Below are positions 4,723 through 6,995 of a stretch of DNA of 64,000 bases, one piece after another. A program made the position numbers and the translations under genes. Each line of letters starts with the position of its first letter. Position 1 is the first letter of the stretch. Source of the stretch: an uncultured Clostridia bacterium (GTDB lineage: Bacteria > Bacillota > Clostridia > Oscillospirales > Ruminococcaceae); the NCBI GenBank assembly GCA_944386475.1, contig CALXBH010000079.1:62001-126000 (forward strand), written 5' to 3'. Below the pieces are notes generated by a model. It was not told the DNA's origin. It saw only the letters and a program-made list of their open reading frames with translations, and searched no databases.

Positions 4723-6069
4723 CTATCGAAGCCCGGCCTTTCTGAGATTGGCGTTATGCTGCTGCAATGTTTTGGCGTAGAAAAACTCTTTTGTCTCCAG
4801 GTTGGAGCAGAAATAATAGTAATCGTTATCCTCCGGATACAAAGCCGCTTTGATGGCGTCCAACCCCGGGTTGCAGATGGGTCCCGGCGGCAGGCCGTCC
4901 CCCTCATAGGTGTTATAAGCCTTGTACATCTCCTCGTTTTCCAACGCGTCGTAGGGCTTGATATACTCCTCTACATATTTGCGGGTGGGGTCGCTTTCCA
5001 GCTTGGGATATTCCTCAGGGTTTTCCAGCCGGTTATAAAAGACGCCGGCCACCTTTTTCATTTCAGCCGGATCGCCGGCTTCCGCCTGGATGATAGAAGC
5101 CAGGGTGATGGTATCCTCCAGGGACATATTCAGCTCCTCCATTCGGCCCCACAAATCGGTGGTGATTTTGTTCTCAAAATTGGTCAAAATCGTTTTGGCC
5201 ACCGATTCCGGCGCCTGGCCAAGGTAAAATTCATAGGTATCGGGGAACACATACCCTTCAATGCGATGGAATTTTAAGGGATCGTTTTCCACATACTCTT
5301 CAAAGGGCAGATCAAAGGTCTGCTTGTTGATGACGTTGATAAAATCTTCCGCCGGACAAACCTCGGCGTCTTCCAGCGCCTGGGCCACATCCTGCAGCGT
5401 CTCCCCTTCCTTGATGGTAATCCTGACCGCGTCCAGCTTGGGGGCGTTTTGCTGCAGCTCGTCGATAATCTCCTCATAGGGCATCTGGCTATTAAGGTTA
5501 TAGATGCCATACTGGAAATTTCCGCCCTCGCCGTTCATCTTCACCACAAACCGGAACAGCCAGGCGTGGTTGATAACGCCGTTTTCCTGCAAGATCTCGG
5601 CGATATCCTTGGTGGTAGAATCCCGGGGAATAATAACCTGGATGTCCTTATCTTCTTTGTAAAGGCCCATCACGTCGTTAAGGGTGAGCAGGATAAACCC
5701 GGCAAGCAGCACCGAAATCCCCACAATAACCCCTGTAAAGGCAATGACGACGCCCAGGCTCTTTTGTTTTTTCTTTTTCTTCTTTTTCTTGCCGCCGCCT
5801 TTTTGGGGCGCGGCGTCCGAAGGCGCCTCCTCCAGAGGATTAAGGCTGTCCATCGCCTCGTCGTCCAAATTCAAGGTGAATTTGGGCTTTTCCTCTTCCG
5901 CAGCGTCCTCTGCTTTGGCTTCGTCTTCTCCGGCGGGGGATTCCTCCGCCGGCGCCGCCTGCTCCGGCTCCCGTGTTTCCTGCACCGGGTTTTCCCCAGC
6001 TGTCTTTTCCCGGGGTACCACTTGCTCTTTTTCCGGGGTTACGTCCTGATCCTTCCGATTTTCGTCCAC
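4723..6069 (-). CDS. mltG: endolytic murein transglycosylase MltG
   Basis: MltG cuts nascent glycan strands at the outer face of the membrane and so limits peptidoglycan strand length. The protein (about 448 residues) has a long acidic, proline-rich cytoplasmic N-terminus (to about residue 95), a lysine tract (KKKKKKKKQK), one membrane helix (about 107-130), and a YceG domain. The active-site region reads TLASIIQAEAGD; the conserved glutamate is present, although the usual ExE is QxE here. VAGVFYNRL and a C-terminal DYYYFCS are typical. The start is taken as GTG 6069 because GGAGAGG lies 8 bases upstream; GTG 6078 would overlap that site. A strong terminator follows. The N-terminal extension is longer than in Escherichia coli. 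Confidence 0.9.
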   Translation of the reverse strand: MDENRKDQDVTPEKEQVVPREKTAGENPVQETREPEQAAPAEESPAGEDEAKAEDAAEEEKPKFTLNLDDEAMDSLNPLEEAPSDAAPQKGGGKKKKKKKKQKSLGVVIAFTGVIVGISVLLAGFILLTLNDVMGLYKEDKDIQVIIPRDSTTKDIAEILQENGVINHAWLFRFVVKMNGEGGNFQYGIYNLNSQMPYEEIIDELQQNAPKLDAVRITIKEGETLQDVAQALEDAEVCPAEDFINVINKQTFDLPFEEYVENDPLKFHRIEGYVFPDTYEFYLGQAPESVAKTILTNFENKITTDLWGRMEELNMSLEDTITLASIIQAEAGDPAEMKKVAGVFYNRLENPEEYPKLESDPTRKYVEEYIKPYDALENEEMYKAYNTYEGDGLPPGPICNPGLDAIKAALYPEDNDYYYFCSNLETKEFFYAKTLQQHNANLRKAGLR

Positions 6070-6180
6070 GTTTCTCACCTCTCCCCGCTGGACTCAGCGG
6101 AGAAACTCCTTTCCTGATAAGATACCTTTTGTTGTCATACCCGGCACACATGATTTTCGGACAGGATCTCCTGTCTTTGT

Positions 6181-6209
6181 AACCTCTTTCACTGTTTTGG
6201 CATAGGATA
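6181..6209 (+). promoter_or_regulatory. sigma-K-like promoter of the small CCC peptide gene
   Basis: AACC (6181-6184), 16 bases, then CATAGGATA (6201-6209) fits the Bacillus sigma-K pattern mACm-N16-CATAnnnTA at every defined position. It lies about 30 bases ahead of the start at 6239. Whether this species' sigma-K uses the same consensus is inferred. Confidence 0.55.
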
Positions 6210-6238
6210 AAGCAAAACACGGAAACGAGGTGAACGCA

Positions 6239-6316
6239 ATGTGTGGCAACGGTTTTGGCGGTAACTGCACCTGGATCATCCTGCTGATTTTGGTGTTCGT
6301 GTGCTGCTGCGATTAA
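6239..6316 (+). CDS. 25-residue cysteine-rich membrane peptide, possible spore protein
   Basis: A very short reading frame, ATG 6239 to TAA 6316, behind GAGGTGA with 6-base spacing. The product starts MCGNGFGGNCTW, then has a hydrophobic run (IILLILVFV) and ends in CCCD. The layout of a glycine/asparagine/cysteine head followed by one membrane-length helix resembles the small YjcZ-like and cysteine-rich peptides seen in spore-formers. The sigma-K-like promoter and the terminator at 6368-6395 frame it as a separate transcript. Function is unknown; the sporulation link is inference from promoter and composition. Confidence 0.7.
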   Translation: MCGNGFGGNCTWIILLILVFVCCCD

Positions 6317-6367
6317 TCCTTGGTACATCCCGATTTTATCCGGTTGTTTCAAAACTCATCCTCACGC

Positions 6368-6395
6368 AAAAACGCTCCCGCCCGGGGGCGTTTTT
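6368..6395. terminator. bidirectional terminator
   Basis: AAAAACGC (6368-6375) pairs with GCGTTTTT (6388-6395), with a further CCC/GGG inside. It sits between the convergent small peptide gene and the folate cyclo-ligase gene and has T tracts on both strands. Confidence 0.85.
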
Positions 6396-6398
6396 GTC

Positions 6399-6995
6399 TT
6401 ACAGAGGATCTTTTGCAAACCGCTTTACATATTTTTCGGTAATTAAAATATCCACCGGGCGGTCATACCGCCCGTGGGGAAGCCGGTTTTGCATACAGGC
6501 ATTGTAGCAAACCCCAGCCGTTGTCCCTGGAAAGCCCGCTAAAAAACGATCGTAATACCCTTTTCCATACCCCAAGCGGAAGCCCTGCATATCAAATCCC
6601 AGGCCGGGAACAATGCAAAAAGCGCCGGAAAAATCCGTGAGCTTTTTACATTTTGCAGGAACAGGTTCCAATACCGAAAAGGTGCGGGGCTCTAAATCTT
6701 CGAAACTTGTGATACGGTAAAACTCCATGAGGCTCGTCCCGTCGATGCACCGGGGAACGGCTACAGCCTTTCCCTCATCCAGCGCTTCGGCGATCAGCCG
6801 ATGGGTGTCCACCTCAATGGGGGTGGACACAAACGTCAGCAGCAAGGAGGCCTCCCGGTATTCTTTTAAGGAGAGAACTTTTTTGAAAATCTCCTCGTCC
6901 TTTTGCTCCTTTACTGCGGGGAGCATCTCCCGCCGGATGGCCTTAAAACGGTCCCGCAGGTCCTTTTTGACCTGCCGGATGTCTACCCTTCCCAT
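6399..6995 (-). CDS. 5-formyltetrahydrofolate cyclo-ligase
   Basis: Converts 5-formyl-THF to 5,10-methenyl-THF with ATP, returning a folate storage form to the one-carbon pool. The 198-residue protein carries the family signature PGLGFDMQGFRLGYGKGYYDRFL (about residues 129-151), split here by name only, and the N-terminal basic helix typical of the family. Its ATG at 6995 overlaps the end of the upstream DJ-1 gene by 13 bases, so the two are very likely translated from one message. ThyX nearby also uses a folate substrate, which makes the local grouping sensible though not proven. Confidence 0.92.
   Translation of the reverse strand: MGRVDIRQVKKDLRDRFKAIRREMLPAVKEQKDEEIFKKVLSLKEYREASLLLTFVSTPIEVDTHRLIAEALDEGKAVAVPRCIDGTSLMEFYRITSFEDLEPRTFSVLEPVPAKCKKLTDFSGAFCIVPGLGFDMQGFRLGYGKGYYDRFLAGFPGTTAGVCYNACMQNRLPHGRYDRPVDILITEKYVKRFAKDPL

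Follow-up and report, generated by a model that had tools for sequence, protein, structure and literature searches.

SpoVM of Bacillus is a small peptide of the forespore surface that forms a charged, amphipathic helix and is not known to carry a cluster of Cys, and YjcZ consists of a Gly-rich head and one hydrophobic stretch and is not known to have a Cys cluster or Cys tail. The spore proteins CsxA, CotY, ExsY and CdeC are of ordinary size. In an excerpt of PMC517825, yjcZ of B. subtilis is placed in the sigma-K regulon as a gene formerly missed by annotation, and several YjcZ family proteins per genome are reported for B. cereus (excerpt of PMC8313275). CsxA, CotY and ExsY build disulfide-linked spore lattices according to the excerpted text of PMC7333573, and CdeC (CD1067) of C. 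difficile is described in part of PMC3738446 as sigma-K regulated and forming resistant multimers. The sigma E and sigma K promoters of C. difficile have a common -10 element and differ at -35, ATA versus AC, and in the same excerpt (PMC3789822) the sigma-K regulon is given AC at -35 and CATANNNT at -10, about 16–17 bases apart, an arrangement that is found upstream of the gene described here.

The window, a stretch of 64,000 nucleotides, belongs to a genome of 2.32 Mb in 85 contigs (G000), and carries a real gene for a 25-residue peptide, the short form of a family of Cys/Gly/Asn peptides of 25–57 residues (Table 1). The initial annotation had claimed an AACC-N16-CATAGGATA promoter match and a ribosome binding site upstream of the gene, and both are present and conserved in G001, the same-genus genome used as close comparison. 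Read directly from the window, the gene starts with ATG at 6239 and stops with TAA at 6314–6316; the mechanical ORF list also gives a GTG start at 6230, leading to 28 residues, but since this GTG overlaps the ribosome site the ATG is favoured. The G001 peptide is identical over all 25 residues, and the nine coding differences between the two genomes are all synonymous, an outcome that did not arise once in 200,000 random draws. The promoter boxes are both unchanged although their spacer has diverged, and the ribosome site and the 15 bases upstream of the ATG are unchanged as well. A scan of 6060–6460 found no sigma-70-type promoter. The two neighbouring genes carry presumed names, given by the look of their sequences.

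Table 1. Features at the locus of the 25-residue peptide gene, in window coordinates.
Feature	Position	Strand	Basis and remarks
-35 element AACC	6181..6184	+	Sequence; sigma-K type (AC); kept in same-genus G001
-10 element CATAGGATA	6201..6209	+	Sequence; 16 bases downstream of AACC; kept in G001
Ribosome binding site GAGGTG	6227..6232	+	Sequence; 6 bases 5' of ATG; kept in G001
CDS, 25 aa, MCGNGFGGNCTWIILLILVFVCCCD + stop	6239..6316	+	Synonymous differences vs G001; family search
14-bp hairpin resembling a terminator, flanked by convergent genes	6366..6397	+	Fold energy
mltG-like gene (endolytic transglycosylase), divergent neighbour	4723..6078	-	ORF; adjoins family members elsewhere
5-formyltetrahydrofolate cyclo-ligase-like gene, convergent neighbour	6399..6995	-	ORF; adjoins family members elsewhere

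A terminator had also been claimed, and the hairpin is indeed found by folding, with -22.4 kcal/mol on the + strand (z -5.2, 0 of 200 shuffles as good) and -17 kcal/mol on the - strand (z -2.2), and it probably serves both strands. A simple terminator scan calls nothing at the locus, because its rule demands a T run after the stem and the T run of this hairpin sits within it.

Used alone as query against 61 relatives, the peptide matches 24 of them at E ≤ 1. A family profile built from 21 rows has matches in 131 of the 247 order genomes (E ≤ 0.01) and in 71 of 293 genomes of the class (E ≤ 0.001); both counts include some probably false hits located within long frames. The class of tiny peptides proposed at the outset is thereby borne out as a conserved family, and the search of related genomes for conservation, named beforehand as the refutation test, did not refute it. 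The CCC end, on the other hand, does not hold as the hallmark of the class: the architecture consists of a head of Cys, Gly and Asn, a Trp with a Cys a short way ahead of it, a stretch of some ten aliphatic residues and a cluster of Cys, and most members run on into a Gly/Cys/Asn tail, which is missing from the window copy. The second member in G000 is a 46-residue paralogue on contig C40, MACCNNGNLFSGFGGGNCTWILILILVLVCCCGDKNNDCGCGCGCD, located upstream of and divergent from two genes that are presumably ctsR- and mcsA-like. A gene for a 437-residue protein is convergent with this paralogue (L002:1675–2988, G000:C40), and related proteins are encoded near the family members in L029 (74%) and L007 (65%).

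In 69 family sequences Cys makes up 23.3%, Gly 21.7% and Asn 14.9% of the residues, and the longest aliphatic run is 8–12 residues, or 12–16 when Cys is counted, with 15 in 48 of the 69; both composition and run lengths are partly built in, because the members were chosen by a regular expression demanding Trp or Phe, a hydrophobic run and Cys. Members with a short upstream region or other shapes (e.g. L031, L033) were left out of the counts. A helix spanning a bilayer would need a longer hydrophobic run, and an AlphaFold2 model of the paralogue shows a helix of only 14 residues (19–32) at low confidence (mean pLDDT 55), so that the single helix described in the initial annotation is conjectural and the peptide may take a sheet-like or interfacial form in place of a plain transmembrane helix. 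Family members gave no meaningful match in Pfam and NCBIfam (the lowest E, 0.042, came from Pfam with a single member), the window peptide matched no Pfam family at E ≤ 10, and six of its relatives gave only unrelated weak Pfam matches. Among PDB sequences no solved chain matches the family, and no title or abstract describing it was found in a literature search that covered a minority of the subscription journals. The label "chorion class high-cysteine", a term of public annotation, led in the literature to the silkworm only and to nothing bacterial.

Comparison of the proteins of five neighbouring genes with 98 family loci reveals two places in which the peptide gene recurs. Place A, flanked by the mltG-like and the cyclo-ligase-like gene, is found with both neighbours and the peptide in eight genomes (the window's, G001, G007, G049, G143, G193, G163 and G222) and with the mltG-like neighbour only in G258, and G044 carries a diverged copy there (L031). 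All nine non-diverged loci have the promoter AC-N16-17-CATA, in some of them up to 161 bases upstream with a long leader, and the other copies at this place are 34 to 55 residues long, the window copy being the short form. Place B, divergent from ctsR (ctsR-mcsA), comprises 12 loci counted as non-duplicate records (L002, L029, L006, L008, L017, L034, L112–L116 and L121), and at each of them a strict sigma-K-type site precedes at least one copy. Both places are occupied in G000, G001 and G044. On G011:C3 (L006/L028/L119) three tandem family genes are divergent from ctsR, the first two with a sigma-K-type site of their own and the third with none.

The initial annotation had described the promoter as a full sigma-K match, and its AC-type -35 element is conserved before family members across the order and the class. 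For counting, grouping at above 70% ungapped identity left a single upstream region to each group, by which 87 genes gave 71 unique and 67 representative sequences. The pattern AC-N16-18-CATANNNT lies within 120 bp of the start in 47 of these 67 (29/41 discovery and 18/26 later loci), whereas neighbouring genes used as controls have it in 0/133 (first set) and 2/92 (second set); the controls are ORFs of at least 150 residues at the same loci, and some of their starts are wrong since they were taken as longest-frame starts. Widened to 200 bp the figures are 52/67 and 10/202, and the 15 representatives still without a strict site include, by eye, several near-misses or downstream copies of a tandem. 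An ATA-type, sigma-E-like -35 element was seen in a single representative, and the paralogue, like the 25-residue gene, has kept AACC-N16-CATAGGATA. Since sigma E and sigma K differ at -35 and the sites carry AC, the family promoters point to sigma K, which would then rather than sigma E control the gene in vivo.

The stricter pattern TAAC-N16-18-CATANNATR occurs six times in the 2.32 Mb of G000, twice before the two family genes, with three occurrences of the reversed pattern as control. The other four matches (L144, L145, L148 and L149) are on contigs C10, C12, C80 and C85; the one on C10 falls within long genes of the opposite strand, the one on C12 lies before no clear gene, and neither of these two inspected matches precedes an obvious spore gene. 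At L009, L037, L039 and L055, which come from a single family within the order, about 110 bases separate the site from the start codon, and the leader in between is conserved and GC-rich with inverted repeats, so that it may be structured.

Outside genomes that have spore sigma factors the family hardly occurs. The class sample divides into 228 genomes matching a spore-type sigma (TIGR02846, E ≤ 1e-35) and 65 that do not, out of 293, and the peptide is found in 70 of the former versus 1 of the latter (Fisher 4e-8, a value that ignores shared descent); the lone exception, in G499, lies inside a frame of 579 residues and looks false. Eight of the 247 genomes of the order have weak general sigma matches only (best E 2e-17 to 7e-21), and the peptide occurs in 131 of the 239 others versus none of these eight (Fisher 0.002, again ignoring shared descent, four of the eight being from one genus). 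Within genus g55 all seven genomes with the spore sigma factor have the peptide, and it is absent in G282, the one without. The family is not universal among sporulating genomes, 158 of the 228 class genomes with spore sigma having no detectable member.

In G000 itself sigK is represented by an N-terminal part only (TIGR02846, 144 bits, positions 2–113) on contig C70 (L072, G000:C70:3269–3604), ending in ...ATYASRCIEKPIPS followed by a stop, and the assembly yielded no second half. The gene is split after ...RCIE in both G000 and G011, with the common junction peptide KPIPS-stop, and in G011 (L097/L098, G011:C16) the second part follows on the same strand about 8 kb further on. In G001 sigK is intact (L082, 301.9 bits). 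This suggests a skin-like insertion, coming and going between close relatives, and because only the N-terminal part was found in G000, a working sigma K there has to be presumed on the strength of an excisable element and a missing piece. Sigma E of G000 is clear and full-length (365 bits).

The best explanation, which we consider moderately probable, is that the gene encodes a thiol-rich membrane or coat peptide of the mother cell, controlled by sigma K and having cross-linking Cys residues. RNA polymerase with sigma K would transcribe the gene in the mother cell late in sporulation, and the peptide would be produced beside the engulfed forespore, where its short aliphatic segment may enter a membrane surface, most likely that of the outer forespore membrane, or pack into the adjoining coat. 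The Cys residues at both ends might then join a disulfide- or metal-linked layer tying the coat to the membrane. Both the location, in line with the coat or outer-forespore-membrane place suggested in the initial annotation, and the cross-linking are inferred; disulfide-linked spore layers built by Cys-rich proteins are established (PMC7333573; for CD1067, PMC3738446). Against this explanation stand the shortness of the hydrophobic run, the 15 representatives with no strict site at 200 bp, the incomplete sigK of G000 and the many sporulating genomes in which no member was detected. With the same family and the same timing the thiols could instead bind metal or buffer redox in the maturing spore without forming a structural layer, a rather unlikely reading; the CCC(C) and GCGCGC tails, the few His and the near absence of charged residues agree with it, and binding rather than networking is conceivable because the window copy keeps five Cys and no tail, but there is no conserved Cys spacing resembling that of known metal sites, and the steady elements are limited to the CC-CCCC cluster and the Cys that precedes the Trp. 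It is also possible, if doubtful, that the peptides, whose hydrophobic run has a constant length insufficient for an ordinary transmembrane helix, line up laterally into a polymer in or on the outer forespore membrane, and that the Cys clusters lock the sheet upon lysis of the mother cell and oxidation by air; were this so, the family would be a clostridia-wide building block of the spore surface, so far unnamed, and would give strict anaerobes an oxygen-triggered seal.

Control by sigma E, the earlier mother-cell factor, with a role in engulfment or cortex formation, appears improbable. The -10 element is common to both factors (excerpt of PMC3789822), G000 has an entire sigma E and a partial sigK, and the mltG-like neighbour is a wall enzyme, but the -35 element is AC in nearly all members, and G001 combines an intact sigK with the same promoter. 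A membrane-active peptide, toxin-like or antimicrobial and freed when the mother cell lyses, would agree with the small size and the hydrophobicity and with the tandem copies of some genomes (L006); we regard it as very unlikely, as 57 of the 69 members have neither Lys nor Arg, the Gly/Cys/Asn tail is unlike that of a pore-former, no RNA family matches in 5900–6700 and the paralogue has no plasmid match. The same RNA search rules out an RNA gene. That 25 codons are below the cut-off of every gene finder would be compatible with a chance frame behind a chance promoter match, which has a negligible probability: the frame is ruled out as a chance one by the purely synonymous changes and by neighbourhoods that recur between genomes, together with the spread of the family, and the promoter by its conserved boxes around a diverged spacer and by the genome-wide pattern count.

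The sigma-K-controlled membrane or coat peptide that we favour bears on a subject that, C. difficile apart, is little known, the spore surface of gut Clostridia; proteins this short are dropped by gene callers. The family, detected in roughly every second genome sampled from the order and linked to sporulation by its promoter and its phyletic distribution, provides a concrete marker of sigma-K activity, and its members are candidates for the coat-membrane junction. Among the known systems, the YjcZ family (Pfam PF09680, YjcZ_2, a model of 24 positions) is tiny too, but the resemblance is at most in size and probable control; membership was rejected, as the YjcZ_2 profile has no match in G000 even at E 10 and none above the cut-off in seven genomes, whereas the B. 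subtilis control matches. SpoVM is similar in size and in its proposed place, and its Pfam model matches neither the window peptide at E ≤ 10 nor six relatives. CsxA, CotY, ExsY and CdeC are Cys-rich and linked to sporulation, and the family shares both features with these spore layer proteins, having 23.3% Cys and tracking the spore sigma factors, but it differs from them in its hydrophobic core and its 25–57 residues, and Pfam, NCBIfam and PDB sequences show no sequence relation to the CsxA/CotY/ExsY type. Tiny sporulation peptides are known as a kind, and what is new here is a family of them that has no Pfam or NCBIfam model, is clostridial and is rich in thiols.
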